A DNA stretch of 64,000 nt from Diadema setosum (Eukaryota > Echinodermata > Echinoidea > Diadematoida > Diadematidae). Positions 1 through 27,869 of this stretch are shown here, piece by piece. The DNA is taken from assembly GCF_964275005.1 (NCBI RefSeq), contig NC_092692.1, positions 14,329,584-14,393,583 on the forward strand. Direction: 5' to 3'. A program made the position numbers and the translations under genes. The notes below the pieces were generated by a model. That model made no database searches and had not been told where the DNA came from. It saw only the letters and a program-made list of their open reading frames with translations. Positions within the stretch are counted from its first letter, which is position 1. The number at the start of each line of letters is the position of its first letter.

Positions 1-3000
1 GATATACAGCCAGGAAGACATTTACTGGCATGCACGTGCCTATGGTATTTTGACATGATATACTACATATTTCCTATAATAAGATGGTTGGAGAAGATGT
101 ATTTCTGAAATTGCAATCTATGCTGATTCAGCCGCCATTTTGCATACACAATTATGATTTTATGATTTGGTATACTAATTTTGGGCAGAAGAGACTGTTT
201 CCCCAAGTTATCTTTACAAGATTGAAATGTCATTATGACCTTAATGCAAGCCTTTTTCAAGAAATCCCACTTGGTAGAATAATGCATTATAATATATATA
301 CTTGGAGAACTGATGTCTCCATCCAGAATGATTATGTGACATAATGTGACCATGCATCACAAAACCAACAAAACGTTGCCAGACATTGATTTTAGTTAAG
401 GGCAGATTCTTAAAGAGCGGACTCTAAGCTTTAAAATGATGTATCACACAATTCAAATGGACTCCCCTAACCTATCTAAATACTAGAACGAAAACACACA
501 CTCTGGAAAAGTGTGAATTGAGAAAAGAGGGTCTATTCAAGCACTTAATCTTTACCAAGCCGTGCTAGCTGTGCAATGAATGTAAACCACTGGAGCTACC
601 ACAATGAAGGGATTATCAGATTAAGCTGAAATTGAGCATGCTCCTTTAACATATTCTATGCATGTTTAATGTCAACTTTCAAGTCAGTAGACTTATCGTT
701 TCAAAAGTTATTAGACTTAAAAGTAAAGAGTGTGTAAATAATTTCAAGAAATGAAAAGGGGACATACCTGATCGTTCTACTCTCCCTCCAAAAAGGTTGA
801 AGAAAAACTGCTGAAAACACAATTTCACATTCATGTTATGATCCCAAACTAAAGAATTATGTAGAAGGATAGCTCTTTCAGCAAATATGAAACACACAAG
901 ATTGACTCAGTTGACCCATTTCCCCTTTCAAGAGTCCTCACGTAAAATCAAGTGTATGACTTTTTTTTTTTTGTGATGCACGGTCACATGTGGAAGATGG
1001 TCCTCTATATTCACCTACTCATACTGTGCCTTACACACAGGGCATACAAAGTCACCCTTTGGAGGTCTGCAGATGTCAACAAATATGGGGTGACACCACC
1101 TCCCACACACCTCACTTGGCTCACAACAAACCCAGTCTGCTGGCAGAGGGGGCTTGCTGCACCCCACAGCATCACAGATTCGTCTTTGCTTGGGTGGTTT
1201 CACTGCTGCTGCCAGTAATGCCCTTAGTACATATCCCTCATTTTTCTTGCATGTACCTGACCAAGGCTAGCTGGATTCAGACCTCTTGTGATCGCTAATG
1301 CGTTCTAAAGACAAAGACAAATAATAATAATATTAATAACAATAATGATAATAAAAATAATAATGATAATAATTAATGAACATAACTATGTATGTATATA
1401 TGTTTGTTTGTTTGTGTGTTTATAGATATATACACACACATATACACATATATACGTACATTCATTAACACTTATGTGAGTAAAGAAATACGTAACCAAT
1501 CACGTGTACTATTACATCTAATTAGGAAATACAATCATAAACATATTCCTAAAAAAGAGTCAGGAGACTGGCTCAACAAATGTGATAATATCAATAAGCA
1601 AACTTGGAACATCAACATGCTGAAACATGTAAAATTCAGATTCTAGTGTATGAAATCTATATGTGAATGTCTTATTATAGTAAACTAGTATTGATAAGAT
1701 ATCAACATGAAATCATCAAGCTCGTCTACCTGGTTTTAAAGGACCATTAACAAAGCTGTTGTAAGTAAAAGATGAAGTGGATCTGTAATTGACGTTGTCA
1801 AAGTAATAAATGTCATTACTGCAGACACATAACACTAAGATTTCATGTTCTAGACTGACCTTGTAAGAAAATAGCAACACAGCATTCAGAGGAAATATTC
1901 ATTTCAACTCCCAAAAGACAGGTCAGTTCAACTGTCACACAGACAGAAAGACAGACAAAAGGACAGACAGAAGGACAACCTGAAAATATATAATGCCTCA
2001 GGTGACACTTTATGGCGTATCTGAGGCATAAGAACTTCCTGAGAAAATTATTGTCAGTCAGTACAACCATATGAGTATAGTGCCTACAGTTTCATGAAGA
2101 TAAACCTTTAGCCATTTCTGAAATATGGTGAGAATTCAGTTCTACTCTTTTCTATGATTAACCCCATGATTTTAAATGCGTGTAGGCCCTATTCTTTTTG
2201 TTAACTGTAGTACTAGCATAACTATCTATACAATACACATCAAACCTTTGATCTTGAGAGATTTAGCCCTAGACTAGTCTCTGTAGCAGATACCATGGTC
2301 AGCCAACATAAAAGCCTGTTTGTTGTTGTTGTTTTTGTTTTCTCTAAACTTGCAATTAAGTGTTATGGGATGGACAAATAAACAACCTGAAAGCATGCAG
2401 TACCTCTTCACTTTTACATGATGGGCACAAGGAAAGAATATATTAGTACATGTTCTTGTTCACAGAATATTTGAAATAAAGAAGAATGCTAGTCCTGTTT
2501 AATTACCAGCATTACAAAGGCACCACACGAACTTCCATCCTTCTGCAGTGCAGACGTCAGGGACTCATCATGGCTCCACTCACCTTGGAGCTCCCCTGTT
2601 TCTTGGGCCCTCTGTGCCATGGAGTGCCTTTACCAACATACAGAAACAGATAAAGGTAAAGGTAAAGGTTTACTGAAGAGCTACAGCCAAAATGCAAAAA
2701 AGGAGATAAGATTGAGGTGGTGGGGATGAGGGCTTGACTCTCATTAGCTTCAAAATGAAGTCAACTTGTTGGCATTACTTAAGTAATTGGATCTATTAAT
2801 AGATGACAACACTCTATTTGTAATTCATAAAAAAAAATATCAGCGTTGATCTAGACACACACATAGAACATCTTTCTTATGGACGATAAAATGTACTTGA
2901 TTTTTTTTTTTTTTTTTTTGTCCTGGCTTATGTTGAGGTTAACCAAATACCCTATTGGAGATCACAAGTATAATATGTGACCCGCTACAACAAAAAGATC

Positions 3001-3734
3001 CAAAGGTCGGGGGAGGACAATCTTCTGAAAATGGCATGACATCATTCCCTTACTCTTCTACTCTAATGTCATATTTAGTACAACTCGTAAAAGTACTCAA
3101 TTGCGGAGATGTCAGTGATTATATTAGCGCATGTCAAGTGGTTGAGGAAATCAGAGTTTCGAGAAAAACACCTTCAAAGTTTTCCTTCCGACGATAACAT
3201 GATCAAATGGTGGCGAGACAGTTTTCATTGCTTGACAATAGAAGGCACGCTCCCAGCATTAACAAACTCATGAACCTTAATTGAGAAAGTATCAATTAAG
3301 TGACAATGCAATAAGAAATTTAAAACAAAGCTTTTTTTATATGTATTTTCTAGTGCATTTCAGGATTCGGTGTCATTTGCCACTCCTTCGCCATTCATTC
3401 CATTTTGTCCAAATTTGGTGACTTTTCCTCAAATCTTATTACAGACATTTTGATATATAATTTAGCTATCTTTGCTATTGCTGGTTGCAATGGCAACTAT
3501 AAACTGACAACCGTGTCAGTCAGACTTTGCATCTTTTTTATGTTCCAATTTCAATTAACAATATTACACTGTATGAAATTAGTGTTTCTTCGCTGAAACT
3601 TTCTGAAGAAGCCAAATGTGATGTAATAATCTTTTTTAATGAAAATGTAATGTTGCCATGGTTATGCGTTATGATATCCTGACTACAAAACACTCTTGTG
3701 GTCTGTACCTCTACCTATGAAAGCAATTGAAACT

Positions 3735-4232
3735 CGGGTCAATTGAAAAAAAAAAAACTGAGGGAGTTAGGTCAATAAACATATTCTCCTTTGATTTGTA
3801 GAACTGTGAAAAAGAAATGTATGTACGTACATGACAATGTACTCACTATAACATTAATGGTTCATTAAACACCACTGAAATGGAGGGAATAAAAGTTTGA
3901 TATCAAAACATAACATAAAATCCATTGGCACTCTGTATATTATCTTTGAAGAGATAAGGGGGTTTGTTCTTCTCCTATGATAGTAGTTGCACATGTCAAG
4001 TCTGGGGTCAATTGTTAAAAACCTGAGGGAATATAGGTCAATACACATAATAAATGTTCCTTTGATTTGCAGAACTGTGAGTGAAAAATTGAATGTACAT
4101 GTTTATATACTCACTGTAATAATTTCATTGAATGGCGTACTAAACACCATTGAAATTAATATTCTAAGAATAAAAGATCGATATCAAAACATAACATATG
4201 TCTATTGGCATTCTGCACATTATCTTTGAAAA
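3735..4232. repeat. Diverged tandem pair, ~230-bp units (left arm)
   Basis: Units at 3,735-3,957 and 4,003-4,232 share the order GTCAATTG, CTGAGGGA, GGTCAATA, CTTTGATTTG, AGAACTGTGA, TACTCACT, AAACACCA, GATATCAAAACATAACAT and TTATCTTTGAA. The mirror pair is near 23,600-24,105. It sits directly downstream of exon C of the C48 gene and has no coding potential that I can support. Confidence 0.75.
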
Positions 4233-5554
4233 GCTGATCTGAACTTGTCCACGTATATATAGATGGTGTGATCAGATCCCGAAGGGAGTCAGGAACAGAC
4301 ATTTTCATTTCTGGAACATTTGCCACAAGAAGGATCTAGTGGCTCTGTCTAATGTTGATTGGCATAAATGCCCACTTGAATTTTGAAAGGGTCACCTACA
4401 GGTAAATAAACCAATACTTTCATTTTAAAGTGAATGACAACTTTTCGTCATTCGTTACAATGTCTAGTATTTCAAGGAGGTATATGTGGGTTTTCTCATA
4501 CATCATTTCAACGATTTGAGGATCGATGTATGTGGGCATTTTATATTTTATGATTTTTTTTTTCAAAGCGTGGAATTGGTTCTTTTGACAGATTTCGATC
4601 TGCTCAAGCAGTTGATAAGCTTTATCTTCTCATATTTTTTTAATTGCCAACAATTCTTTGTTACTACACAAACCCACTCTTGCTACTTTAACTTGCTTCA
4701 TTAGAAAAGTGGCATTCACTTGCTGTTCCTAAACTTTACATAAATTTACGTTCAAAATTAAACTCTTGATGATTAGCTTGTAGTTAAGTGCCGTGTGAGT
4801 GCATCACTCAAAAGCTAGCAAATCTTAAAGATTAGTTGATGATTAGAAACACATCATCAGTGAGTACACAGAATAATGTTAGTAATTTTTTATTATTACT
4901 ATTAAGCACCTTTATCTAACAAATCATTGAACACAGCCAGAGGCTGAATTAAAATTGATTTTACAAAAATGAAGAAACAATATTTATATGCAATATAACA
5001 TGAATATAAAAATGTGAAATTACTACAGGCTCATACAAAACAAGAAAAAAAAAAACCCGCATACATAGTAGGGAAATAATGAAAGCTTGAATTGACCTTG
5101 GCCATTGACCCTTGACCTTTGACCATAACATTTTCGCAACAATCACTGCCAATCAGTATTTGCATATTCACTAAGTTCCATGAATGATGTATAGGCCTGC
5201 CTTGAACCATTTTCGAGATACGAGGAAATATAAAATTTTCACGTTTTCACTCAACGCTTTACATTTAATTTTTGACCTTATTGCCCAAAATATTCTTTCT
5301 CTTTCTCTCGCTCTAAACCCCCCCCCCCATAATATTATGAGTGCTGATACTCACTCATCTGAGTACAAACCCAAAGATTGTTACACAATATACACACCAG
5401 TGCCCAACATCACCTCACAACAATAATCAACGAACTTGTGAGTTTGCGTCTTATGGGTCAACCTCCAGCTGCGCTATTTTGCATGGGTATATTAAAGGTT
5501 ATGTGACAAGATTCTGCAATTCCTGTACAAAAATTGAGTAGGATTCACTCTTAA

Positions 5555-6114
5555 AGGGACAAGTATACCTTCATATACATAAGGATTGAGAGAGTGCAGC
5601 AATATTAGTAGAACACATCAGTGAAAGTTTGGGGAAAATTGGACAATCCGTTCAAAAGTTACGAATATTTTAAGTATCTGCGCAGTCACTGCTGGAAGAG
5701 AAGACTACTACAGTGTATGATGTCACATGCGTACAACTACATAAGGAAAATAAAAAGAGAATTTCACAAAACTTTACTTTTTGAATAAAGTGCACATTTC
5801 TTCGACTTGCTACTGACGTATGTTAAGGGTAATATTATTCCCCCTGCCTTCTGAAAGAGAGAAGTCCAGTGTTCTTTTGTTATGCGAGAAAAATGGAAAT
5901 ATGTTGAATTTTCTTTATTCTTTCTTTATATAGTTGTACTCATGTGACATCACAAGCTATAGTAGTCTTTTCATCCAGCCGTGACTGAGTAGAAACTTAA
6001 AAAATTCATAACTTTTGAACAGATTGTCCGATTTTCCTCAAACTCTCACTGATGTGTTCTACTAATATTGCTGCATTCACTCAACCCACATGTCTATGAA
6101 GGTGAACTTGTCCT
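5555..6114. mobile_element. Foldback MITE with TTAA target sites (left arm)
   Basis: The element is flanked by TTAA at 5,551 and 6,115. Its ends are inverted: AGGGACAAG plus ACCTTCATA on the left and AGGACAAG plus ACCTTCATA on the reverse complement of the right. Inverted similarity extends inward for most of the length (ATTAGTAGAACACATCAGTG in both halves). It has no coding capacity. TTAA targets fit piggyBac- or Kolobok-type mobilisation. The counterpart is at 21,173-21,731, so this insertion predates the palindrome. Confidence 0.85.
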
Positions 6115-7715
6115 TTAAGTTTTATCTTAAAGTTTTGTGCACATGTGAACATGCGTTGTGAGGTCAAGACTGGAGCTAATCATCAACTGCTATACGTAAG
6201 TTTCATATTTAGCAACTGCGTATGAAAGTAACTAAAGTCTTTTGTGTTGATAATAACACAACTGCTTTACAGTAGAAAAACATTGCCTGCAAAACTCGTG
6301 ACCATACCTTCTTAAACTGCCATTCCACGGACATTCCACTGTACAGCAACATACGAGGGTATGATGAACACATGTCCATAGTCCTGTACATTGATTTCAT
6401 TTCGAAGAAGATGGAGGTACTCATTTATGACCTAACAAAATATAATCCAAGAAAGAAACAAAACCTTCCGGTTATCACTTCTAAACAAAATCTTGTATTC
6501 ACAAAATCAAGAAATTATTAAAAATGTATTACAAATTAAGGAGGAACTACAATCATCAGGACTCTGCCCCAGGGTACATAAAGAACAAAGTAAAAAAGTC
6601 ACCTATTGAAAGTAAAATGGATGGCACTGGTTCATATACCACTTTCCTATCTTCTTCTGAGGCTTTGGTTGTCAACATGCCCATGTACTTATCTACTTTT
6701 TGTTTTGCAGTAAAATAATGCACAAAAAATGGAGAATTCCTTAATTAAACTGTCCAGCAAATAGCTCAATATTTCCTTCATTTTTAAGACCTTGAGATCT
6801 AATCTGGTGGGAACATTCATTTGTATACTTTGTTTTGTAATGTCATCTTCTCAAGGGAATGTGTAATGCTATGGCATGGCACACACAGAAGCAAAAAAGA
6901 AATACATTGTATGTATATATCAATAGACATAATTGTTCTCACAGTCCCATTTTTGTGACTGTCATCACCATCATTGCCACACATACTGTATATTCCAACA
7001 TAGGGAGATTTCAACAATTGGTGTGTAGTTCGGATCTGACCTCGGCAGCTTTTTTTCTGTAACCAAAGTTACATAGATCTATCAAAGTGTCACAAGATAT
7101 TTCAGACTTCGAAGACTATACACTCGGACTGACTGATGATGAGCAGCAGGCTATAATCATCATTTTCAGAAAATGTTCTTCCCCTATATACATAGCTTTA
7201 CCGTAGGTCTGTATACTCGGCGAGATCTAAAATTCAGCTCCCCTTCTCACACTTAAAAAGCTAACCTCCACAGCTAAGGACAAAGGACCCTCAAATACAA
7301 TGTCTTCCACAATTTCCCAAGTTAAACGTAGACCTAATTAAAAGTTCATTCAAGGTGGCCAACTTAATTCCCTAACAAAACAGCTATTAAGTTTCTTGGC
7401 TGTTATTTTATTGTATTTTGCACAACTGCAGGATATTATGCAGCTCGGGTTCATCATTTAGTTTACTCTCAAGTCGGGTATCATTGTACTCAGACTGTTT
7501 AGGACGGCTGTATATCCACTTAAATTTGTACTTGCCGATCGTACCCTTCCATATCATATAAAACACGTGCCGCTGTCCATTCGTTTACTGCATAGCTGCT
7601 GTAAACATGATATTCATAAGATGAGCGGACGTGGGGAAAAACCTAGATTGGCGATTGCCTATTTTTGAAGTTACAAGTGGAAATGAAATGGGTGGTTCTT
7701 ATTATGGTCCATAAA

Positions 7716-8536
7716 ACCAAGTTTTGGTGATAAAAATTAAAAAAAGAGGGAGCAATGAAGACAAAAAAAAATCTTCTTTCTCCCATAACATGGGAAAAGA
7801 AATACCAATTACGAGGCCCTGAGACCCATGGATTCCCACGGGTGATTACTTATTAAACCTAATGACTATGATCCCCCTCCCAAAATAACAATAATAATTA
7901 TAATAACAATATAACAATATTAAGAAGAATAATAATTATGATAATAATAATGATGATGTATAGTCTGAAGCAGATAAACGGATGATTCTATGATCCATCA
8001 AACCAAGTTTTGGTGATTGAAAACAAAAAGGAGGAAGCAATTGAAGACGAAAATATAATATTTTTCTCCCATAACGGCGGAAAACAAATAGGAATGCCTT
8101 GACACCAGCCGTGGATTCCCTCGGGTGCCTGCATGGATGCAAGAGCAGGGGGTATAGGAATATGTTATATTAATATCAAAGTCATAGTGTCAATAGTATC
8201 TCCCCGTTTTGACGGGAAGAATCTGTGGGCAGAACTTTCGGAGAATCTCATAAGCGCTTTTGGTAATGTTTCTCTGAATGTTTGTTTTTGTTTGTTTGTT
8301 TGTTTGTTTGCTTGTTTTTTCTGCGGGGGAGAAAATGTGTGTGTGTGTTTGGGGATTGAACGGTGGTCATGGGTAGAAGAGAGCACAAGTAACGAAAGAA
8401 TGAGAAAACTTTTCTCTTTATTTCATGTTCTTTATCATCATTCTTTATCTATATAATTCTTTATTTTATGTGCAAAATCGTATATATGAGAAAAAATGAA
8501 ACCTCTCAGACCCGTGGATTCCCACGGGTGCTGCTA

Positions 8537-8537
<1 letters not shown>
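7716..8537 (+). mobile_element. Helitron-like 3' ends, three in tandem (left arm)
   Basis: At 8,510-8,529 ACCCGTGGATTCCCACGGGT forms an 8-bp stem with a 4-base loop, followed 4 bases later by CTAG at 8,534-8,537 and then T of a TA tract. This is the textbook Helitron 3' terminus (hairpin, CTRR, insertion between A and T). Related but degraded hairpins lie at 7,824-7,843 and 8,107-8,127, each preceded by the shared block AAACCAAGTTTTGGTGAT. No Rep/helicase is seen and the 5' end is not located. Confidence 0.6.

Positions 8538-8606
<69 letters not shown>
8538..8606. repeat. (TA)n microsatellite, left arm
   Basis: Uninterrupted TA dinucleotides directly after the Helitron-like CTAG end. The mirror tract at 18,543-18,599 is shorter. 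Confidence 0.98.
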
Positions 8607-8608
<2 letters not shown>

Positions 8609-9057
8609 CTCAGTACTACACTCACCTCACACATTCACATCAACACACATTGCATTCATACATCTAACAATGCATGCTGGCACATACCTTACTGTTCAAC
8701 CAATTGGGATGTATGAGGGTTTCAAAGTCTCGGTATTCCAATACATCACCACACGTGGTACCGAGCTTTCTTATGCATGGGCAAGGTGACATTCTCCACA
8801 TCAATCTCTTGGAGAAGTTTTCTGATGGCACCTGCAACGATTGATCCAAGCAGAGTGAGTAAAAACTGTATTATGTGTTAAAGCTGTGAACCTGATATTT
8901 CATACTTGATGCTGTATAAATCTTACTTATACATCTTCACGAAGTAATACTGGAATAAACTACAAATGTATCATGAGGGGTGTCGACCATAGTGATGCAC
9001 TCTTTTTTTTTAACAAAGGCAAATGCCAAAATGTGTCTCGCCCTTACGCGTAGAAGA

Positions 9058-9915
9058 AACTAGAATTATCACTGAAGGTGATTAATACCCCCGCCCCTAG
9101 TGTTGCTTTATAGTATGTGATGTCATGAGGGCATTGACGTTAATACCAAGTTTGTGCACTTTATAGTTTTAGTTTTATAGTTTTAGTTTACTGTACAATT
9201 ACACGAGTTCCACAAGGTTTGGGTAAAAAGTGAGGTTACCATGGCAATGCATTGTCTGATACAAACACAAGGGACATTTTGCATAACTATACTTAAAGAC
9301 CATCATACACACCAAATTTCACCTTCATAGACTAAATGGTTCAATTTGATACAAAAATGAGTGGTTACCATGGCAACAAATTTTTCTTATATTAACACAT
9401 TGGTGTCTTGCATAACCTTTAACAAAAACCCAGGTTCCTGATTGGTTGTTGCTATGGGAAGTTGCCATTCCAGCAATAGTTGCCATCCTAACATCTTTTA
9501 TTAAATGGGGCCCATACAGGTGTCACAAGTTGATTTTCATGCAGTGGCAGACTTGCAATCCAAGTGTTGGCCTGAAATATCCTAAATATGTTCAGGTAGA
9601 CAATTGCATCTTCTATTTCCCACACTGAAAGCCAAACAACAAGACTTTCAGCAGCAGCAGCAACAACAACAACAAACAGCAACAACGCCACCACCACCAA
9701 CAACAACAATAACAAACCTTGTGCAGGTCTCTGTCTTGGTATTTCCGGGGGTGCACTCTTGTCGATATTCGCTGAGGTTTCTTTTGGGTAAAAATGGAAG
9801 AAGAATTCATGATAAGCACAAACTAGAATTATCACTGAATGTGATTAATACCCCCGCCCCTAGTGTTGCTTTATAGTATGTGAAGTTATGAGGGCAATGA
9901 CGATAATACCAAGTC
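9058..9915. repeat. Cassette flanked by ~95-bp direct repeats (left arm)
   Basis: Near-identical blocks at 9,058-9,165 and 9,823-9,915 (starting ACTAGAATTATCACTGAA and containing ACCCCCGCCCCTAGTG) flank about 660 bp that hold the candidate upstream exons. The right arm has the same pair near 17,215-17,310 and 18,000-18,090. The repeats are short and lack recognisable LTR features. A tandem duplication or paired insertions of one small element would also explain them. Confidence 0.6.
9520..9780 (-). other. Candidate upstream exons of the left-arm C48 gene (unrecognised)
   Basis: Mirror of 17,345-17,580: blocks 9,780-9,718 and from 9,624 downward, with the same donor, acceptor and phase. The frame after VWEIEDAIVYLNIFRI continues differently from the right arm (FQANTWIASLPL), because a small indel changes the frame there. 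Confidence 0.28.
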
Positions 9916-10499
9916 TAACAACTAGAACAATCTGAGTATCTAAATTAGATCTAAACTTGTCATTATAAAACACATTTTTTTTTGTTACAAAATACAAGGC
10001 CACGAAAGTATTATCAAAGAAGTATTTATCACTTGCACCATTCAGATATTAATATTTGATTACCAAATTACCAAATCTGATGTTACAAAAGGAGAAACAA
10101 AGAATTTTTTTTACGGGAGGGCCTATACTCAAGGTACATCTCCATAGTTTACAACACGCACGTTACTAACCACTGCAACAACCAACACATGCAATCTACA
10201 ATATCAAGATTTGTTTTTCCTTTCGAGGACCATCAGACTAATGCCAAAACTTCCATTTCCTTATATTTATTCTTCTTCCTCGATTAGCACTTTCTTTGTC
10301 TGCACATGGTTACATCAACTGAGTAAAACAATAAAACAAACAAGTATGTGGAGTTTTCCATGCTTGCGTCCACATAATATTATAATGGCTGTGTAAGGAA
10401 AATGATAGCAAAACGCACAAGGACCTGAATTTCTTAATATTTTTTTCAACTTTATCACTGCAATATTGTGACATATTTTTAGTTATCTGCTTAACAACG

Positions 10500-11425
10500 C
10501 ATAGTCATTAGAAGAGCAATTAATACTAAGATGTTGTCATTTTCAAGCGTCGAATCACATCAAAAGACATGAGTTTCGGCTCCAAGGGCTTTGTTTGTCA
10601 CTCTACTAAAAATAATTTAAGTTAAAAATTGAAGTTCATCGGTAAATTCAACAACATGACCAAACCGCACTCTACTGTCGCCTCACCACACTCTACTGTC
10701 GCCTCGTTTTATGTGTATAACGCATAGGCATTAGAAGAGCACGTAATACTATAGATGTTGTCACTTTTAACGGTCGAATCGCATCAAAAGACATGGGTTT
10801 CGGCTCCAGGGGCTTTGTTTGTCACTCTACTAAAAAATAATTTAAGCTAAAAATTGAAGTTCATCGGTAAATTCACCAATATGACCAAACCGCACTCTAC
10901 TGTCGCCTCACCACACTCTACTGTCGCCTCGTTTTATGTGTATAACGCATAGGCATTAGCAGAGCATTTGATACTAAGATGTTGTCACTTTTAACGGTCG
11001 AATCGCTTCAAAAGACATGAGTTTCGGCTCCAGGGGCTTTATTTGTCACTCTACTAAAAATAATCAATGTTAAAAATGCAAGTTCATCGGTAAATTCACC
11101 AATATGACCAAACCGCACTCTACTGTCGCCTCACCACACTCTACTGTCGCCTCGTTTTATGTGTATAACGCATAGGCATTAGAAGAGCATTTGATAATAA
11201 GATGTTGTCACTTTTAACGGTCGAATCGCTTCAAAAGACATGAGTTTCAGCTCCAGGGGCTTTATTTGTCACTCTACTAAAAATAGTCAGTGTTAAAAAT
11301 GCAAGTTCATCGGTAAATTCACCAATATGACCAAACCGCACTCTACTGTCGCCTCACCACACTCTACTGTCGCCTCGTTTCATGTGTATAACGCATAGGC
11401 ATTAGAAGAGCATGTATTACTATAG
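10500..11425 (+). repeat. ~223-bp satellite, left-arm array (4 periods)
   Basis: The anchor CGCATAGGCATTAGAAGAGC recurs at 10,721, 10,946 (one mismatch), 11,169 and 11,392, after a diverged start at about 10,500. Each full monomer contains CTCTACTGTCGCCTC twice, 20 bp apart. This is the smallest of the three arrays. Confidence 0.95.
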
Positions 11426-11597
11426 ACGTTGTCATTTTTAACGGTTGATTGAGATGAACTTCGATTCAATTAGAACTTAAGAGAATGACTGATTTCATTA
11501 AGTGTACTTTTCTGTGTTTTCTGACCCAGCCCGTTTTACCCACACCCCCCCCCCCCAACAAAAAAAAAAAAAATAAAAAAATAACAACTAGGCCATA

Positions 11598-12370
11598 GGG
11601 TAACATCCCCAGTATTCGGTCACTTAAGCTTTTTTGCAATATTTTTCAAACTAAAATAATACATACATACATCATATCTACAGCAATGTATGTGAAATAT
11701 ATCAAATTTCTTTAATCTCAACTTTCATTTCGTTAAATATCTCACAGAATTGCACAAAATCGCGAAATATTTCACCTTGAAAATTCCCCAGTATACGGTC
11801 ATCGGCTCCAGTATTCGGTCACGCGATGTGCGCGTTCAAAGTCAATGCGTGTTCAAGGCAGCTGAAAAACGCGCGCGCGCGCTACCTTGTTGGCGCAGAA
11901 TTGCATCGGGGACGTTGCGGCGACCGTTGGTGACCGAATACTGGGTCCTCGGCACTTGCATTCAACCCTTGTACATTGGGACACTGTATCGGCACGTACG
12001 GACATTTTGTTTTTCTTTTGCGTTTTTGAGGATACCATTACACTCCAAGCTTGCGATAAGCGAAAAATCCCGCGAGAGAACGGCGTAATTTCTCGATTTT
12101 TAGCGCTTTTTCGGCGACCCGTACTCTTATAACTGGGCCTTATCCGCGCGCGCTTTTGGAAAGTAGCGCCGATTCTGCACTTTTGACGGTAAAATTTGGG
12201 ATTTTGGATGGATTTTTGGAGGGGGCTAAGGGAGTTTCCTATTGTGAATGAGTGTGGAAGTATGTGAATTAATGTGATTTGCGTGTGTTGTGACAGTTGA
12301 ACTTACTGGCTGGTGACTAGTGATAAGTGACCGAATACCGGGGGCTGACCGAATACTGGTGCCCTTACCC
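11598..12370. mobile_element. 773-bp TIR element, left-arm-specific, TA target duplication
   Basis: The ends are inverted repeats beginning GGGTAA and sharing CCAGTATTCGGTCA, flanked by TA at 11,596 and 12,371. The right arm (near 13,565) and the NDUFA6 upstream copy (near 39,248) read straight through the empty site GGCCCTACTAAAAG. The CAGTATTCGGTCA word recurs inside near 11,809 and inverted near 11,930. TA duplication suggests a Tc1/mariner-like non-autonomous element, but no transposase is visible. The interior is CpG rich near 11,860-12,150. Confidence 0.9.
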
Positions 12371-12538
12371 TACTAAAAGTATTTATTTGAAGAATCTTCT
12401 CACCCCCCTTCAAACGCACTTACCACAATGACGATCAAACTCATTGTCAAACCATGTTTGTACAGAATCTTCGGGATGTCAGCAAGGGTGAGTCGTCGAT
12501 GGACATCCCTCGAGTGAGTGACAGACAGACGGAAAAAT

Positions 12539-12575
<37 letters not shown>

Positions 12576-12580
12576 CACAT
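12539..12580. repeat. (CA)n microsatellite, left copy of the shared module
   Basis: CA repeat interrupted by AAAC, also found at 13,363-13,412 (as GT) and 39,417-39,462. All three copies of the NDUFA6-upstream module carry it. Confidence 0.95.
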
Positions 12581-12818
12581 ACTGTTGCAACTGTGCAAGC
12601 AAAATGTGTTTACATGACGTACACTCGGTAGTGTACGTTTATAACGCAGGGGAACAGGGAATTTCCCACCTCATACATATTCAATAAGGCTTCGGCAGTC
12701 AGCGAGCCAGCTCATGAATAATTAATATCTGTGACCTTTGGTGAAACTACTTCCCGCAGAGCATTCTCGCCTCAAAAGTGCCTACCCACCGAACTAAAAC
12801 ATAGTGGAATGCGTGTCC

Positions 12819-12880
12819 CTATTCCCAACATACACGAGACCGTGCAGCCAAATTACCGTGTTGCGTCGCCATCTTGTTCC
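12819..12880 (-). promoter_or_regulatory. Candidate first-exon start of left-arm gene copy
   Basis: Mirror of the right-arm start: CCGGAACAAGATGGCG with ATG at 12,872 on the minus strand. It opens a 17-codon frame (MATQHGNLAARSRVCWE) that differs completely from the right-arm frame after MA, although flanking DNA on both sides is shared. The region just after the start codon is therefore replaced or hypervariable between arms. Confidence 0.3.
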
Positions 12881-12890
12881 GGCAATTTTT

Positions 12891-12900
12891 CCTTATATGG
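12891..12900 (-). promoter_or_regulatory. CArG-box-like site, left of palindrome centre
   Basis: CCTTATATGG is a perfect match to the SRF/MADS CArG consensus CC(A/T)6GG. It lies between the centre and the CCGGAA/ATGGCG of the outward-reading left copy. The core could equally act as a TATA-like element. Function is inferred from sequence only. Confidence 0.45.
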
Positions 12901-12905
12901 AGTGC

Positions 12906-13040
12906 ACGCTTAAGCGCGGTCAGACTGGGCCACTGGTACGCGCGCAAGCAAGAGTACGCCGTCCAGTGGCTAGTGATTATGACGTAACAATGCACGTTTG
13001 TACAATATGACAATGGTCTTGCGCTTCGGAGACACAGCCC
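12906..13040. other. Asymmetric centre (spacer) of the giant palindrome
   Basis: This 135-bp stretch lies between the last paired bases of the two arms (GGAGTGC ending at 12,905 and GCACTCC starting at 13,041) and has no partner in the other arm. It is richer in G+C and CpG than the surroundings (several CGCG and GCGC words) and contains a TGACGTAA CRE-like word. It could be the ancestral single-copy promoter core or the remnant of the inversion breakpoint. Confidence 0.8.
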
Positions 13041-13045
13041 GCACT

Positions 13046-13055
13046 CCATATAAGG
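13046..13055 (+). promoter_or_regulatory. CArG-box-like site, right of palindrome centre
   Basis: CCATATAAGG matches CC(A/T)6GG and is the mirror partner of the left site. It is followed at 13,063 by CCGGAA (ETS core) and at 13,074 by ATGGCG, the usual order for a TATA-like or SRF site, an activator site and a start codon. Confidence 0.45.
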
Positions 13056-13062
13056 AAAAATT

Positions 13063-13118
13063 GCCGGAACAAAATGGCGGTGGTAGCAAGTTTTGGTGGT
13101 TGCGTATTTCCTGGGTGA
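13063..13118 (+). promoter_or_regulatory. Candidate first-exon start of right-arm gene copy
   Basis: CCGGAACAAAATGGCGG combines an ETS-type core with a YY1-like ATGGCGG start-codon context. The ATG at 13,074 opens a 14-codon frame (MAVVASFGGCVFPG) before TGA at 13,116. A GTGAAC donor-like sequence lies near the end, so this may be a first exon. No link to the downstream C48 exons can be shown without transcripts. Confidence 0.3.
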
Positions 13119-13362
13119 ACACGCATTCCACTATGTTTTAGTTCGGTGTGCCTACCGCACTTTTTGAGGCGAGAATGCTCTGCGGGAAGTAGTTTCACCA
13201 AAGGTCACAGATATTAATTATTCATGAGCTGGCGCGCTGACTGCCGAAGCCTTATTGAATATGTATGAGGTGGGAAATTCCCTGTTCCCTTGCGTTATAA
13301 ACGTACACCACCGATACGAGTGTACGTCATGTAAACACATTTGCTTGCACAGTTGCAACAGT

Positions 13363-13734: not shown

Positions 13735-16640
13735 GTCTATAGTAATACATGCTCTTCTAATGCCTATGCGTTATACACATGAAACGAGGCGACAGTAGAG
13801 TGCGGTTTGGTCATATTGGTGAATTTGCCGATGAACTTCAATTTTTAACATTAATTATTTTTAGTAGAGTGACAAATAAAGCCCCTGGAGCCGAAACTCA
13901 TGTCTTTTGGAGCGATTCGACCGTTAAAAGTGACAACATCTTAGTATTAAAATGCTCTTCTAATGCCTATGCGTTATACACATAAAACGAGGCGACAGTA
14001 GAGTGTGGTGAGGCGACAGTAGAGTGCGGTTTGGTCATATTGGTGAATTTACCGATGAACTTGCATTTTTAACATTGATTATTTTTAGTAGAGTGACAAA
14101 TAAAGCCCCTGGAGCCGAAACTCATGCCTTTTGAAGCGATTCGACCGTTAAAAGTAACAACATCTTAGTATCAAATGCTCTTCTAATGCCTATGCGTTAT
14201 AGGCCTACACATGAGGCGACAGTAGAGTGTGGTGAGGCGACAGTAGAGTGTGGTTTGGTCATATTGGTGAATTTACCGATGAACTTGAATTTTTAACTTA
14301 AGTTATTTTTAGTAGAGTGACAAACAAAGCCCCTGGAGCCGAAACTCATGTCTTTTGATGCGATTCGACCGTTAAAAATGACAACATCTATAGTATTACG
14401 TGCTCTTCTAATGCCTATGCGTTATAGTACACATAAAACGAGGCGACAGTAGAGTGTGGTGAGGCGACAGTAGAGTGCGGTTTGGTCATATTGGTGAATT
14501 TACCGATGAACTTCAATTTTTAACATTAATTACTTTTAGTAGAGCGACAAATAAAGCCCCTGGAGCCGAAACTCATGTCTTTTGGAGCAATTCGACCGTT
14601 AAAAGTGACAACATCTTAGTATTAAATGCTCTTCTAATGCCTATGTGTTATACACATAAAACGAGGCGACAGTAGAGTGTGGTGAGGCGACAGTAGAGTA
14701 CGGTTTGGTCATATTGGTGAATTTACCGATGAACTTGCATTTTTAACTTAAATTATTTTTAGTAGAGTGACAAACAGAGCCCCTGGAGCCGAAACTCATG
14801 TCTTTTGATGCGATTCGACGCTTGAAAATGACAATATCTGAGTATTACGTGCTCTTCTAATGCCTATGCGTTATACACATAAAACGAGGCGACAGTAGAG
14901 TGTGGTGAGGCGACAGTAGAGTGCAGTTTGGTCATATTGGTGAATTTATTGATGAACTTGAATTTTTCACTTAAATTATTTTTAGTAGAGTGACAAACAG
15001 AGCCCCTGGAGCCGAAACTCATGTCTTTTGATGCGATTCGACCGTTGAAAATGACAACATCTATATAATTACATGCTCTTCTAATGCCTATGCGTTATAC
15101 ACATAAAACGAGGCGACAGTAGAGTGCGCTTTGGTCATATTGGTGAATTTACCGATGAACTTCAATTTTTAACATTAATTATTTTTAGTAGAGTGACAAA
15201 TAAAGCCACTGGAGCCGAAACTCATGTCTTTTGGAGCGATTCGACCGTTAGATGTGACAACATCTTAGTATTAAATGCTCTTCTAATGCCTATGCGTTAT
15301 ACACATAAAACGAGGCGACAGTATAAGAGTGTGGTGAGGCGACAGTAGAGTGCGGTTTGGTCATATTGGTGAATTTACCGATGAACTTGCATTTTTAACA
15401 CTGATTATTTTTAGTAGAGTGACAAATAAAGCGCCTGGAGCCGAAACTCATGTCTTTTGAAGCGATTCGACCGTTAAAAGTGACAACATCTTAGTATCAA
15501 ATGCTCTTCTAATGCCTATGCGTTATACACATAAAACGAGGCGACAGTAGAGTGTGGTGAGGCGACAGTAGAGTACGGTTTGGTCATATTGGTGAATTTA
15601 CCAATGAACTTGCATTTTTCACTTAAATTATTTTTAGTAGAGTGACAAACAGAGCCCCTGGAGCCGAAACTCATGTCTTTTGATGCGATTCGACCGTTAA
15701 AAATGACAACATCTATAGTATTACATGCTCTTCTGTCATGCCTATGCGTTATACACATAAAACGAGGCGACAGTTGTGGTGAGGCGACAGTAGAGTGCGC
15801 TTTGGTCATATTGGTGAATTTACCGATGAACTTGCATTTTTAACACTGATTATTTTTAGTAGAGTGACAAATAAAGCGCCTGGAGCCGAAACTCATGTCT
15901 TTTGAAGCGATTCGACCGTTAAAAGTGACAACATCTTAGTATCAAATGCTCTTCTAATGCCTATGCGTTATACACATAAAACGAGGCGACAGTAGAGTGT
16001 GGTGAGGCGACAGTAGAGTACGGTTTGGTCATATTGGTGAATTTACCAATGAACTTGCATTTTTAACTTAAATTATTTTTAGTAGAGTGACAAACAGAGC
16101 CCCTGGAGCCGAAACTCATGTCTTTTGATGCGATTCGACGCTTGAAAATGACAATATCTGAGTATTACGTGCTCTTCTAATGCCTATGCGTTATACACAT
16201 AAAACGAGGCGACAGTAGAGTGTTGTGAGGCGACAGTAGAGTTCGGTTTGGTCATATTGGTGAATTTACTGATGAACTTGAATTTTTAACATTAGTTATT
16301 TTTAGTAGAGTGACAAACAAAGCCCTTGGAGCCGAAACTCATGTCTTTTGATGTGATTCGACGCTTGAAAATGACAACATCTTAGTATTAATTGCTCTTC
16401 TAATGACTATGCGTTATACACATACGAGGCGACAGTAGAGTGTGGTGAGGCGACAGTAGAGTTCGGTTTGGTCATATTGGTGAATTTACTGATGAACTTG
16501 AATTTTTAACATTAGTTATTTTTAGTAGAGTGACAAACAAAGCCCTTGGAGCCGAAACTCATGTCTTTTGATGTGATTCGACGCTTGAAAATGACAACAT
16601 CTTAGTATTAATTGCTCTTTTAATGACTATGCGTTGTTAA
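13735..16640 (-). repeat. ~223-bp satellite, right-arm array (13 periods)
   Basis: Reverse-complement orientation of the same satellite, with GCCTATGCGTTATA recurring about every 220 bp from 13,761 to 16,627. The first monomer and the one near 15,100 carry a single GAGGCGACAGTAGAGTG instead of the doublet and are about 23 bp shorter. The array occupies the same place in the arm as the 4-period left array, so copy number changed after duplication. Confidence 0.95.
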
Positions 16641-18599: not shown

Positions 18600-18600
<1 letters not shown>

Positions 18601-20238: not shown

Positions 20239-20275
20239 GCCCACAGGAGTGCAATTTGGTGATGCCTTCCCCGCG

Positions 20276-20345
<70 letters not shown>

Positions 20346-20352
20346 GGCATAT
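20239..20352. mobile_element. Right-arm-specific ~113-bp microsatellite cassette with GCCCACA ends
   Basis: Between GAGAACAA and ATTATG, which are contiguous in the left arm near 6,925, the right arm has GCCCACAGGAG..., a (TC)n-(TA)n-(TG)n tract and TGTGGGCATATA. The GCCCACA/TGTGGGC ends are inverted. It may be a microsatellite-carrying mini-element or a local expansion. Confidence 0.6.
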
Positions 20353-21172
20353 AATTATGTATATTGATATATACATACAATGTATTTCTTTTTTGCTTCT
20401 GTGTGTGCCATGCCGTAGCATTACACATTCCCTTGAGAAGATGACATTACAAAACAAAGTATACAAATGAATGTTCCCACCAGATTAGATCTCAAGGTCT
20501 TAAAAATGAAGGAAATATTGAGCTATTTGCTGGACAGTTTAATTAAGGAATTCTCCATTTTTTGTGCATTATTTTACTGCAAAACAAAAAGTAGATAAGT
20601 ACATGGGCATGTTGACAACCAAAGCCTCAGAAGAAGATAGGAAAGTGGTATATGAACCAGTGCCATCCATTTTACTTTCAATAGGTGACTTTTTTACTTT
20701 GTTCTTTATGTACCCTGGGGCAGAGTGCTGATGATTGTAGTTCCTCCTTAATTTGTAATACATTTTTAATAATTTCTTGATTTTGTGAATACAAGATTTT
20801 GTTTAAAAGTGATAACCGGAAGGTTTTGTTTCTTTCTTGGATTATATTTTGTTAGGTCATAAATGAGTACCTCCATCTTCTTCGAAATGAAATCAATGTA
20901 CAGGACTATGGACATGTGTTCATCATACCCTCGTATGTTGCTGTACAGTGGAATGTCCGTGGAATGGCAGTTCAAGAAGGTATGGTCACGAGTTTTGCAG
21001 GCAATGTTTTTCTACTGTAAAGCAGTTGTGTTATTACCAACACAAAAGACTTAAGTTACTTTCATACGCAGTTGCTAAATATGAAACTTACGTAGAGCAG
21101 TTGATGATTAGCTCCAGTCTTGACCTCACAATGCATGTTCACATGTGCACAAAACTTTAAGATAAAACTTAA

Positions 21173-21731
21173 AGGACAAGTTCACCTTCATAGACATGTG
21201 GGTTGAGTGAATGCCGCAATATTAGTAGAACACATCAGTGAGAGTTTGAGGAAAATCGGACAATCTGTTCAAAAAGTTATGAATTTTTTAAGTTTCTGCT
21301 CAGTCACGGCTGGATGAAAAGACTACTATAGCTTGTGATGTCACATGAGTACAACTATATAAAGAAAGAATAAAGAAAATTCAACATATTTCCATTTTTC
21401 TCGCATAACAAAAGAACACTGGACTTCTCTCTTTCAGAAGGCAGGGGGAATAATATTATCCTTAACATACGTCAGTAGCAAGTCGAAGAAATGTGCACTT
21501 TATTCAAAAAGTAAAGTTTTGTGAAATTCTCTTTTTATTTTCCTTATGTAGTTGTACGCATGTGACATCATACACTGTAGTAGTCTTCTCTTCCAGCAGT
21601 GACTGCGCAGATACTTAAAATATTCGTAACTTTTGAATGGATTGTCCAATTTTCCCAAACTTTCACTGATGTGTTCTACTAATATTGCTGCACTCTCTCA
21701 ATCCTTATGTATATGAAGGTGTACTTGTCCT
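21173..21731. mobile_element. Foldback MITE with TTAA target sites (right arm, shared copy)
   Basis: Mirror copy of the 5,555-6,114 element, flanked by TTAA at 21,169 and 21,732. It is present at the same place in both arms, just downstream of exon B of the C48 gene. Confidence 0.85.
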
Positions 21732-22455
21732 TTAAGAGTGAATCCTGCTCAATTTTTGTACAGGAATTGCAGAATCTTGTCACTTAACCTTTAATATACC
21801 CATGCAAAATAGCGCAGCTGGAGGTTGACCCAGACGCAAACTCACAAGTTCGTTGATTATTGTTGTGAGGTGATGTTGGGCACTGGTGTGTAATTGTGTA
21901 ACAATCTTTGGGTTTGTACTCAGATGAATGAGTATCAGCACTCATAATATTGTGGGGTTTTTTTTAGAGCGAGAGAAAGAGAAAGAATATTTTGGGCAAT
22001 AAGGTCAAAAATCAAATGTAAAGCGTTGAGTGAAAACGTGAAAATTTTATATTTCCTCATATCTCGAAAATGGTTCAAGGTAGGCCTTTACATCATTCAT
22101 GGAACTTAGTGAATATGCAAATACTGATTGGCAGTGATTGTTGCGAAAATGTTATGGTCAAAGGTCAAGGGTCAATGGCCAATTAAAAGGTCAACTCAAG
22201 CTTTCATTATTTCCCTAGTATGCGGGTTTTTTTTTCTTGTTTTGTATGAGCCTGTAGTAATTTCACATTTTTATATTCATGTTATATTGCATATAAATAT
22301 TGTTTCTTCATTTTTGTAAAATAAATTTTAATTCAGCCTCTGGCTGTGTTCAATGATTTGTTAGATAAAGGTGCTTAATAGTAATAATAAAAAATTACTA
22401 ACATTATTCTGTGTACTCACTGATGATGTGTTTCTAATCATCAACTAATCTTTAA

Positions 22456-23013
22456 AGGGAAGGTAAACCCAATGAGCAATGTGGATTGAGTGAAAGCAGC
22501 AACAGTAGTAGAACACATCAGTGAAAGTTTGAGGAAAATCGGACAATCGATGCAAAAGTTATGAATTTTTAAAGTTTTGGTGTTGGAACCGCTGGATGAG
22601 GAGACTACTACAGGATATGACGTATTAGTGGACAACAATACAAAGAAAATATAAAGGAAATTCAACAAAAATTCACTTTTCTAGAATTATGAAAGAGCAA
22701 TGGACCAACCTCTTTCAGAAAGCAGGGGGAATAATTGCTACCCTTAACATATGTCAATATCAAGTTGATGGAATTTGTAATTTTTATGAAAAATGGATTT
22801 TTGTAGCATTTTCTTTATGTTTTCTTGGTATTGCTGTCCACTCATACGTCATAACCTCAAGTAGTGTCCTCATCCAGCGGTTCCACAACCAAAACTTTAA
22901 AAATTCATAACTTTTGCATCGATTGTCCGATTTTCTTCAAACTTTCACTGATGTGTTCTACTAATGTTGCTGCTTTCACTCAATCCACATTGCTCTTGGG
23001 GTTTATCTTCCCT
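22456..23013. mobile_element. Foldback MITE, right-arm-specific insertion with TTAA duplication
   Basis: A second family member starting AGGGAAGGTAAACCC and ending with the inverted counterpart, flanked by TTAA at 22,452 and 23,014. The left arm carries the empty site: a single TTAA at 4,825-4,828 in otherwise matching flanks. The two halves pair with each other (GTAGAACACATCAGTGAAAG present in both orientations). Insertion therefore followed divergence of the two arms. Confidence 0.92.
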
Positions 23014-26000
23014 TTAAGATTGCTAGCTTTTGAGTGCACTCACACGGCACTTAACTACAAGCTAATCATCAAGAGTTTAATTTTGAACGTAAATTTATGT
23101 AAAGTTTAGGAACAGCAAGTGAATGCCACTTTTCTAATGAAGCAAGTTAAAGTAGCAAGAGTGGGTTTGTGTAGTAACAAAGAATTGTTGGCAATTAAAA
23201 AAATATTAGAAGATAAAGCTTATCAACTGCTTGAGCAGATCGAAATCTGTCAAAAGAACCAATTCCACGCTTTGAAAAAAAAATCATAAAATATAAAATG
23301 CCCACATACATCGATCCTCAAATCGTTGAAATGATGTATGAAAAAAACCCACATATACCTCCTTGAACTACTAGACATTGTAACGAATTACGAAAAGTTG
23401 TCATTCACTTTAAAATGAGAGTATTGGTTTATTTACCTGTAGGTGACCCTTTCAAAGTTCAAGTGGGCATTTATGCCAATCAACATTAGACAGAGCCACT
23501 AGATCCTTCTTGTGGCAAATGTTCCAGAAATGAAAATGTCTGTTCCTGACTCCCTTCGGGATCTGATCACACCATCTATATGTGGACAAGTTCAGGTCAG
23601 CTTTTCAAAGATAATGTGCAGAATGCCAATAGACATATGTTATGTTTTGATATCGATCTTTTATTCTTAGAATATTAATTTCAATGGTGTTTAGTACGCC
23701 ATTCAATGAATTTATTATAGTGAGTATATAAACATGTACATTCAATTTTTCACTCACAGTTCTGCAAATCAAAGGAACATTTATTATGTGTATTGACCTA
23801 TTCCCTCAGGTTTTTAACAATTGACCCCAGACTTGACATGTGCAACTACTATCATAGGAGAAGAACAAACCCCCCTTGTCTCTTCAAAGATAATTTACAG
23901 AATGCCAATGGACATATATGTTATGTTTTGATATCAAACTTTTATTCCCTCCATTTCAGTGGTGTTTAATGAACCATTAAATGAATATGTTATAGTGAGT
24001 ACATTGTCATGTACGTACATACATTTCTTTTTCACAGTTCTACAAATCAAAGGACAATATGTTTATTGACCTAACTCCCTCAGTTTTGTTTGTTTGTTTT
24101 TTTTTTTACATTTGACCCGAGTTTCAATTGCTTTGATAGGTAGAGGTACAGACCACAAGAGTGTTTTGTAGTCAGGATATCATAACGCATAACCATGGCA
24201 ACATTACATTTTCATTAAAAAAGATTATTACTTCATATTTGGCTTCTTCAGAAAGTTTCAGCGAAGAAACACTAACTAATATTGTTAATTGAAATTGGAA
24301 CATAAAAAAAAAATGCAAAGTCTGACTGACACGGTTGTCAGTTTATAGTTGCCATTGCAACCAGCAATAGCAAAGATAGCTAAATTATATATCAAAATGT
24401 CTGTAATAAGATTTGACGAAAAGTCACCAAATTTGGACAAAATGGAATGAATGGCGAAGGAGTGGCAAATGACACCGAATCCTGAAATGCACTAGAAAAT
24501 ATATCAAAAAAGGCTTTGTTTTAAATTTCTTATTGCTTTGTCACTTGATACTTTCTAAATTAAGGTTCATGAGTTTGTTAATGCTGGGAGCGTGCCTTCT
24601 ATTGTCAAGCAATGAAAACTGTCTCGCCACCCCTTGATCATGTTATCGTCGGAAGGAAAACTTTGAAGGTGTTTTTCTCGAAACTCTGATTTCCTCAACC
24701 ACTTGACATGCGCTAATATAATCACTGACATCACCGCAATTGAGTACTTTTACGAGTTGTACTAAATATGACATTAGAGTAGAAGAGTAAGGGAATGATG
24801 TCATGCCATTTTCAGAAGATTGTCCTCCCCCGACCTTCGGATCCTTTTGTTGTAGCGGGTCACATATTATACTTGTGATCTCCAATTATAGGGTATTTGG
24901 TTAACCTCAACATAAGCCAGGACAAAAAAAAATAAAATCAAATACATTTTTTCGTCCATAAGAAAGATGTTCTATGTGTGTGTCTAGATCAACGCTGATA
25001 TTTTTTTTATGAATTACAAATAGAGTGTTGTCATCTATTAATAGATCCAATTACTTAAGTAATGCCAACAAGTTGACTTCATTTTGAAGCTAATGAGAGT
25101 CAAGCCCTCATCCCCACCACCTCAATCTTATCTCCTTTTTTGCATTTTGGCTGTAGCTCTTCAGTAAACCTTTACCTTTACCTTTATCTGTTTCTGTATG
25201 TTGGTAAAGGCACTCCATGGCACAGAGGGCCCAAGAAACAGGGGAGCTCCAAGGTGAGTGGAGCCATGATGAGCCCCTGACGTCTGCACTGCAGAAGGAT
25301 GGAAGTTCGTGTGGTGCCTTCGTAATGCTTAAACAGGACTAGCATTCTTCTTTATTTCAAATATTCTGTGAACAAGAACATGTACTAATATATTCTTTTC
25401 TTGTGCCCATCATGTAAAAGTGAAGAGGTACTGCATGCTTTCAGGTTGTTTATTTGTCCATCCCATAACACTTAATTGCAAGTTTAGAGAAAACAAAAAC
25501 AACAACAACAAACAGGCTTTTATGTTGGCTGACCATGGTATCTGCTACAGAGACTAACAACTAGTCTAGGGCTAAATCTCTCAAGATCAAAGGTTTGATG
25601 TGAATTGTATAGATAGGTATGCTAGTACTACAGTTAACAAAAAGAATAGGGCCTACACGCATTTAAAATCATGGGGTTAATCATAGAAAAGAGTAGAACT
25701 GAATTCTCACCATATTTCAGAAATGGCTAAAGGTTTATCTTCATGAAACTGTAGGCCTACTCATATGGTTGTACTGACTGACAATAATTTTCTCAGGAAG
25801 TTCTTATGCCTCAGATACGCCATAAAGTGTCACCTGAGGCATTATATATTTTCAGGTTGTCCTTCTGTCTGTCCTTTCGTCTGTCTTTCTGTCTGTGTGA
25901 CAGTTGAACTGACCTGTCTTTTGGGAGTTGAAATGAATATTTCCTCTGAATGCTGTGTTGCTATTTTCTTACAAGGTCAGTCTAGAACATGAAATCTTAG

Positions 26001-26402
26001 TGTTATGTGTCTGCAGTAATGACATTTATTACTTTGACAACGTCAATTACAGATCCACTTCATCTTTTACTTACAACAGCTTTGTTAATGGTCATTTAAA
26101 CCCAGGTAGACGAGCTTGATGATTTCATGTTGATATCTTATCAATACTAGTTGACTATAATAAGACATTCACATATAGATTTCATACGCTAGAATGTGAA
26201 TTTTACATGTTTCAGCATGTTGATGTTCCAAGTTTGCTTATTGATATTATCACATTTGTTGCGCCAGTCTCCTGACTCTTTTTTTTTAGGAACATGTTTA
26301 TGATTGTATTTCCTAATTAGATGTAATAGTACACGTGATTGGTTACGTATTTCTTTACTCACATAAATGTTAATGAATATACGTATATATGTGTATATGT
26401 GT

Positions 26403-26415
26403 GTGTATATATCTA

Positions 26416-26479
<64 letters not shown>

Positions 26480-26482
26480 TTG
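26403..26482. repeat. (TA)n/(TG)n microsatellite
   Basis: TA-rich tract upstream of exon F of the right-arm C48 gene. The corresponding left-arm tract near 1,400-1,460 is much shorter. Confidence 0.95.
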
Positions 26483-27869
26483 TATATATATACACACAAA
26501 CAAACAAACATACATACATACATAGTTATGTTCATTAATTATTATTATTATTATTATTTGTCTTTGTCTTTAGAACGCATTAGCGATCACAAGAGGTCTG
26601 AATCCAGCTAGCCTTGGTCAGGTACATGCAAGAAAAATGAGGGATATGTACTCAGGGCATTACTGGCAGCAGCAGTGAAACCACCCAAGCAAAGACGAAT
26701 CTGTGATGCTGTGGGGTGCAGCAAGCCCCCTCTGCCAGCAGACTGGGTTTGTTGTGAGGTGTGTGGGAGGTGGTGTCACCTCATATTTGTTGACATCTGC
26801 AGACCTCCAAAGGGTGACTTTGTATGCCCTGTGTGTAAGGCACAGTATGAGTAGGTGAATATAAAGGACCATCTTCCATATGTGACCGTGCATCACAAAA
26901 CAAAACAAAAAAGTCATACACTTGATTTTACGTGAGGACTCTTGAAAGGGGAAATGGGTCAACTGAGTCAATCTTGTGTGTTTCATATTTGCTGAAAGAG
27001 CTATCCTTCTACATAATTCTTTAGTTTGGGATCATAACATGAATGTGAAATTGTGTTTTCAGCAGTTTTTCTTCAACCTTTTTGGAGGAAGAGTAGAACG
27101 ATCAGGTATGTCCCCTTTTCATTTCTTGAAATTATTTACACACTCTTTACTTTTAAGTCTAATAACTTTTGAAACGATAAGTCTACTGATTTGAAAGTTG
27201 ACATTAAACATGCATAGAATATGTTAAAGGAGCATGCTCAACTTCAGCTTAATCTGATAATCCCTTCATTGTGGTAGCTCCAGTGGTTTACATTCATTGC
27301 ACAGCTAGCACGGCTTGGTAAAGATTAAGTGCTTGAATAGACCCTCTTTTCTCAATTCACACTTTTCCAGAGTGTGTGCTTTCGTTCTAGTATTTAGATA
27401 GGTTAGGGGAGTCCATTTGAATTGTGTGATACATCATTTTAAAGCTTAGAGTCCGCTCTTTAAGAATCTGCCCTTAACTAAATATCAATGTCTGGCAACG
27501 TTTTGTTGGTTTTGTGATGCATGGTCACATTAGGTCACATAATCATTCTGGATGGAGACATCAGTTCTCCAAGTATATATATCATAATGCATTATTCTAC
27601 CAAGTGGGATTTCTTAAAAAAGGCTTGCATTAAGGTCATAATGACATTTCAATCTTGTAAAGATAACTTGGGGAAACAGTCTCTTCTGCCCAAAATTAGT
27701 ATACCAAATCATAAAATCATAATTGTGTATGCAAAATGGCGGCTGAATCAGCATAGATTGCAATTTCAGAAATACATCTTCTCCAACCATCTTATTATAG
27801 GAAATATGTAGTATATCATGGCAAAATACCATAGGCACATGCCAGTAAATGTTTTCCTGGCTGTATATC

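Follow-up and report, generated by a model that had tools for sequence, protein, structure and literature searches.

Structure and extent of the inverted arms

The stretch of Diadema setosum DNA analysed here (the window; 64,000 bp at C8:14,329,584–14,393,583, forward strand, of the ERGA assembly of this sea urchin) contains two long arms arranged head to head upstream of the gene NDUFA6. These arms very probably belong to one family of giant terminal inverted repeat (TIR) DNA transposons and arose by two independent insertions, copy 1 being nested in the end of copy 2. The ERGA-BGE assembly (912,728,646 bp) is described as built from HiFi reads with hifiasm and purge_dups (PMC13264686), and the genome searched has 912,680,840 bp. 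The window was extended by 60 kb upstream and 20 kb downstream; the resulting 144 kb contain no N bases, and negative positions given below lie upstream of the window. Bases 1–12,905 pair with 27,869–13,041 of the opposite strand, with differences at 1.60% of the aligned columns (165 of 10,314) outside the 223-bp tandem arrays described below (arm A, 1–10,480). A sequence-only reading of the window had reported two diverged head-to-head copies in its first 27.9 kb and had suspected a marine animal as the source, and both points are borne out. The extent of 1–27,869 that it gave was set by the window edge, position 27,869 being only the partner of window base 1. Once the flanks are included, the mirror symmetry is seen to end at −10,607 and, on the other side, at 39,670; no homology continues into the 49 kb and 44 kb of flanking DNA searched beyond these points.

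A common terminus is present at all four ends. It consists of an outer domain, about 0.6 kb long and starting GGTAGGCACTTTTGAGG / GGTAGGCACTTTTGAGGCGAG, and a 223-bp tandem array that follows it. Copy 1, on the minus strand, extends from −10,607 (C8:14,318,976) to 12,786 and is 23,394 bp long, with positions 1–12,786 inside the window. An array of about 4.9 kb lies upstream of the window, while the right terminus of copy 1 comprises an array of 4.2 units (10,496–11,445, plus strand) and the outer domain (11,449–12,786, plus strand), which measures about 0.56 kb without its insertion and ends in AAAAGTGCCTACC. Copy 2, on the plus strand, resumes after the nested insertion at 13,157 and runs to 39,670 (26,514 bp), its first bases being a 14-bp stub at −10,621 to −10,608; the whole structure, stub included, spans −10,621 to 39,670, about 50.3 kb. 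The left terminus of copy 2 has an array of 12.8 units (13,786–16,635, minus strand), and its right terminus has an array of 27.1 units (32,737–38,790, plus strand), with decayed units just before it, and an outer domain at 39,073–39,670 (plus strand). The array at 32.4–38.8 kb, which the sequence-only reading had left beyond its limits, is the far end of the right arm. The interior between the termini is about 16 kb, and with their satellite arrays the termini reach up to about 7 kb. Viral and prokaryote collections contain no match to a 20-mer of the satellite.

Each arm also carries an insertion of its own with a target duplication, as had been noted before. A 775-bp TIR element private to copy 1 (11,593–12,367) is flanked by a TA duplication with one neighbouring mismatch and has no counterpart in the right arm or in the related terminus at 39.1–39.7 kb, and a TIR element of about 560 bp private to copy 2 (22,456–23,013) lies between two TTAA motifs.

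A dispersed family of paired termini

The same termini recur elsewhere in the genome. The outer domain (571 bp) has 40 genome matches, being the best 40 of 79 candidates, and 34 of these form 17 inverted pairs, the first member on the minus strand and the second on the plus strand; the other six are unpaired. The pairs are found on C1, C2, C3, C4, C5, C6, C8, C10, C19, and C24. Sixteen of them span 16–38 kb and one, on C3, spans 59 kb. A 1,101-bp stretch of the interior gave 16 long matches at 95–100% identity among the best 40 of 4,772 candidates, and 223-bp arrays adjoin all ten termini examined, two of which are the outer ends of the C8 nest. The sequence-only reading had taken the first 27.9 kb of the window for a giant inverted duplication with arms of at least 13 kb. 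The arms are indeed inverted, and longer than supposed (23.4 and 26.5 kb), but they do not represent a duplication of one segment, given that the same termini occur as 17 inverted pairs and that the nearest relatives of the left arm are the copies on C1 and C2. Dispersed inverted termini, together with duplications of constant length (with the misses listed below), mark the family as a cut-and-paste TIR transposon.

The 59-kb pair (C3:32,550,680–32,609,704) lacks the first terminus bases at its left end, and the MITE (miniature inverted-repeat transposable element) found at the C8 junction occurs about 0.1 kb outside its right end. This pair is perhaps another nest.

Target site duplications and the proposed nested insertion

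The C8 nest as a whole lies between the two copies of a perfect 9-bp direct repeat, ACCTAGATC, the left copy at −10,630 to −10,622 and the right copy at 39,671–39,679 (plus strand). Between the left copy and copy 1 lies the stub GGTAGGCACTTTTG, which corresponds to the first 14 bases of a terminus, and beyond copy 1 and the MITE the sequence of copy 2 is taken up again at GCACTTTTTGAGGCGAG. The site of the nested insertion is likewise marked by a 9-bp duplication, GCACTTTTG, whose right-hand copy has one extra T. Rejoining the two pieces of copy 2, minus copy 1 and one GCACTTTTG, yields the canonical terminus of the C2 copy plus one T, which argues that copy 2 was in place first and that copy 1 entered 5 bp inside its end. 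Elsewhere in the family, exact 9-bp duplications flank six of the 17 pairs (C1:24.16, C2:18.05, copy 2 on C8, C10:12.18, C10:17.12, and C24:22.92 Mb), and eight of nine duplication bases match at two more (C6:39.50 and C10:39.73); the pair formed by copy 1 is the one with the additional T.

The head-to-head junction itself is occupied by a 362-bp dispersed MITE (12,787–13,148). At least 41 other near-full-length matches at 93–100% identity occur in the genome, from the best 40 of 636 candidates scored. Copies elsewhere are 360–365 bp long, have long inverted repeats, and are flanked by 5-bp repeats in all seven cases examined. The innermost stretch of the palindrome is made by the inverted repeats of the MITE itself. 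The 135-bp centre that had been singled out earlier does exist as a non-matching spacer (12,906–13,040), but it is simply the middle of this later element. Immediately beyond the MITE, TGCCTACC (13,149–13,156, plus strand) repeats the last 8 bp of copy 1.

These features suggest a sequence of three insertions. Copy 2 (26.5 kb) would have entered 26 bp upstream of the NDUFA6 start codon, generating the 9-bp duplication ACCTAGATC. Copy 1 (23.4 kb), in the opposite orientation, would then have entered the left terminus of copy 2 at a point 5 bp from its end, with duplication of GCACTTTTG; this would have left the 14-bp stub of copy 2 outside copy 1 and produced the head-to-head palindrome in one step. 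The MITE would have inserted at the junction last. In such a scheme, a DDE transposase supplied by another copy would bind the termini and insert the element with a 9-bp stagger, and the tandem arrays may perhaps help the transposase to bind, by analogy with foldback elements, for which this role has been suggested in the available text of PMC4079207. A large TIR transposon entering the end of its own kind would be a simple route to a long imperfect palindrome, and a nested TIR insertion of this type can mimic an inverted duplication or an assembly error.

The 9-bp duplication flanking the pair as a whole is also what would be seen if the head-to-head pair had been built at another locus and had reached the NDUFA6 site as a 50-kb composite, mobilised via its two outermost ends. 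We consider such a move improbable, as the nested duplication GCACTTTTG accounts for the pair without it. Moreover, among the 40 scored termini, C8 is the only place where two lie less than 1 kb apart, the inside of the 59-kb C3 pair not having been read.

Relationships among the copies

The two copies on C8 are not a pair of closest relatives. Across 3,082 columns and nine of the 11 copies (C4_17.13 and C10_39.74 were left out for poor coverage), copy 1 differs from the copies at C1:24.18 and C2:18.07 by only 8 and 10 positions and from copy 2 by 55, while copy 2 differs from all other copies by 48–61. In 1000 of 1000 bootstraps copy 1 was less distant from each of these two copies than from copy 2, and in 990 of 1000 copy 2 had a nearest relative other than copy 1. 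Comparison of all 11 copies over 1,207 columns again places copy 1 with those on C1 and C2 (3–4 differences, against 20 to copy 2). The family has been recently mobile, to judge from copies on different chromosomes that differ at as few as 8 of 3,082 columns, and a nested copy 1 with very close relatives fits the insertion order suggested by the stub.

These relationships bear on two further explanations. The sequence-only reading had raised the prospect of a mis-joined haplotype, in which two alleles of a single heterozygous locus would have been placed head to head by the assembler. The arm divergence of 1.60% is indeed near the 2.11% heterozygosity given for another D. setosum individual in the part of PMC11066563 that was available, and private insertions and differences in array length are what alleles can show. 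Alleles would, however, share their flanks, and the symmetry stops exactly at the transposon termini on both sides, so the arms are not alleles with shared flanks. The 9-bp duplication surrounds the pair, and elements on C1 and C2 resemble the left arm more closely than the right arm does. We therefore regard a haplotype join as scarcely credible. The uniformity of divergence along the arms does not discriminate here, since a dispersion of 1.1–1.5 fits either a uniform rate (the control used) or alleles at rho/theta of at least 5.

The idea that a single segment was truly duplicated in place in inverted orientation, through fold-back or template switching, fares no better. The arms almost met before the MITE arrived, as a fold-back event would leave them. 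The expectation that such arms be closest relatives is contradicted by the 8 and 10 differences from the C1 and C2 copies against 55 between the arms (3,082 columns). Both arms are also delimited by termini known from 15 other paired loci; the chance that this explanation holds seems to us negligible. A hairpin read from a single molecule, already thought unlikely in the sequence-only reading, is ruled out by the large insertions and the array length differences close to the centre.

Several observations weigh against the nesting of two family members as set out above. Seven of the 17 pairs have no clear duplication (C1:6.83, C3:32.55, C4:5.26, C4:44.01, C5:10.78, C10:22.66, and C19:26.36), and at the C24:23.06 Mb pair (C24:23,057,288–23,081,963) the duplication ATGCAGCGC is displaced 14 bp from the right terminus. 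The repeat beside the junction MITE is 8 bp long (TGCCTACC), compared with 5 bp in seven of seven other copies, leaving 3 bp unexplained. All of the evidence comes from assembled sequence. Finally, no transposase domain was found in the two copies read whole or in 30 kb of a third, and the copies were therefore likely mobilised in trans.

Coding content of the elements

Both arms carry a PHD-finger-like exon, which is located at 1,018–1,266 (minus strand) in copy 1 and at 26,612–26,851 (plus strand) in copy 2. The copy 1 exon has a 9-bp in-frame difference from that of copy 2. One ligand cysteine has been lost in the window's copies, as judged by eye, and the finger is therefore probably defective in both. 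Two family members with an intact finger match the Pfam PHD profile at an E-value of 5.2e-4 and 20.4 bits, below the gathering score of 24; the family exon also matches solved PHD fingers at an E-value of 4e-4. P0121, a relative of this exon, has 23 genome matches, of which 16 lie inside terminus pairs; among the remainder, three are within 15 kb of an unpaired terminus, one is within 5 kb of an interior match, and three are unlinked to scored matches. A protein search with the window's exon returned two unnamed proteins, and a search with the intact exon returned no match.

Across the open frames, Pfam otherwise reported a CANT1 domain, a sub-threshold reverse transcriptase, and weak matches taken as chance. 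The Mutator-like element (MULE) domain PF10551 has 27 genome matches, none of which is inside a terminus pair, and tblastn with the frames of four MULE loci gave chance matches only. A candidate Ulp1-like motif at 25.2–25.3 kb was dropped, as it had no Pfam support and none of 11 Peptidase_C48 matches was inside an element. The window holds no tRNA, and no Rfam family reached its gathering score there. Within the giant element, positions 29,280–31,331 comprise diverged, partly repeated sequence, to which the sub-threshold reverse-transcriptase match (29,910–30,224) belongs.

Affinity to known transposons

The closest resemblance is to Rehavkus, a Mutator-related group whose hosts are given as arthropods and annelids in the accessible text of PMC6446971, along with three features: 9-bp target duplications, a PHD finger, and a minisatellite in the termini. 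Rehavkus-1_TC is described as 9.5 kb long, with 164-bp repeats in its inverted termini (PMC10218199). The urchin elements have comparable features: 9-bp duplications (with the misses listed above), a sub-threshold PHD finger, and a tandem satellite within inverted termini. They are considerably larger than Rehavkus-1_TC, at 16–38 kb in 16 of 17 pairs. Their outer terminus of about 0.56–0.6 kb exceeds the 26–400 bp given for Rehavkus TIRs in that text, the host is an echinoderm rather than an arthropod or annelid, and a transposase domain was not found. Since the outer terminus lies outside the listed range and no transposase domain was found, membership is unproven, and the family is called Rehavkus-like without being filed under Rehavkus. 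The portions of the Rehavkus literature available name no sea urchin host, and PMC6446971 mentions other MULEs of echinoderms. Should a transposase confirm the affinity, echinoderms would be added to the hosts reviewed there.

Foldback elements offer a second parallel. Tetris of Drosophila virilis, as described in the sections available of PMC4079207, has an outer flanking domain followed by tandem repeats of about 220 bp, with target duplications of 8–10 bp, and its copies, like those of the urchin, apparently lack a transposase. Long TIRs made of an outer domain and tandem repeats, as in foldback transposons, are present in the urchin family. The urchin interior is about 16 kb, however, and its termini reach about 7 kb, against at most 1,735 bp in Tetris. 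The unit lengths of 223 and about 220 bp are probably alike by chance. The sea urchin foldback transposon of Strongylocentrotus purpuratus (1983) is a further candidate parallel.

The nested arrangement also has partial counterparts. Plant MULEs with multiple long TIRs likewise have several terminal repeats at one end, although, as far as the text at hand of PMC3310237 goes, their inner TIRs lack a target duplication and nesting was argued against, whereas the nested duplication is visible in the urchin. Long and similar inverted arms are shared with the palindromes of mammalian sex chromosomes and of Botryllus, which are described as one segment in the available parts of PMC8981503 and PMC12448946; the urchin arms are separate insertions. 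A literature search for inverted segmental duplications in sea urchins found no papers. What the window brings out is a family of giant transposons, recently mobile in this sea urchin, with satellite arrays at their ends. As a tentative conjecture, and one we think more doubtful than the nesting itself, urchins may carry a clade of giant (16–38 kb), recently mobile Rehavkus-like elements, mobilised in trans and bearing satellite termini of up to about 7 kb, that insert into themselves and near gene starts and build palindromes of tens of kb in single steps.

Neighbouring genes

A distance of 26 bp separates the end of the 50-kb nest from the start codon of NDUFA6 (39,670 to 39,697), a gene for a component of complex I of the respiratory chain. 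The open frame with its first coding exon (39,697–39,870, plus strand) has no Pfam match and was assigned by eye. A later exon (46,873–47,016) matches solved NDUFA6 chains in 16 of 16 listed cases, with E-values down to 2e-16. Given this distance, the promoter or 5′ untranslated region of NDUFA6 should now include the transposon terminus.

Further downstream, an open frame at 62,978–63,745 (minus strand) shows 100% identity to a Diadema setosum CANT1 protein across 82% of the frame, and two further exons in the window agree with that protein by eye. Between NDUFA6 and CANT1 lies a separate 158-bp tandem array of about six units (56,845–57,795).

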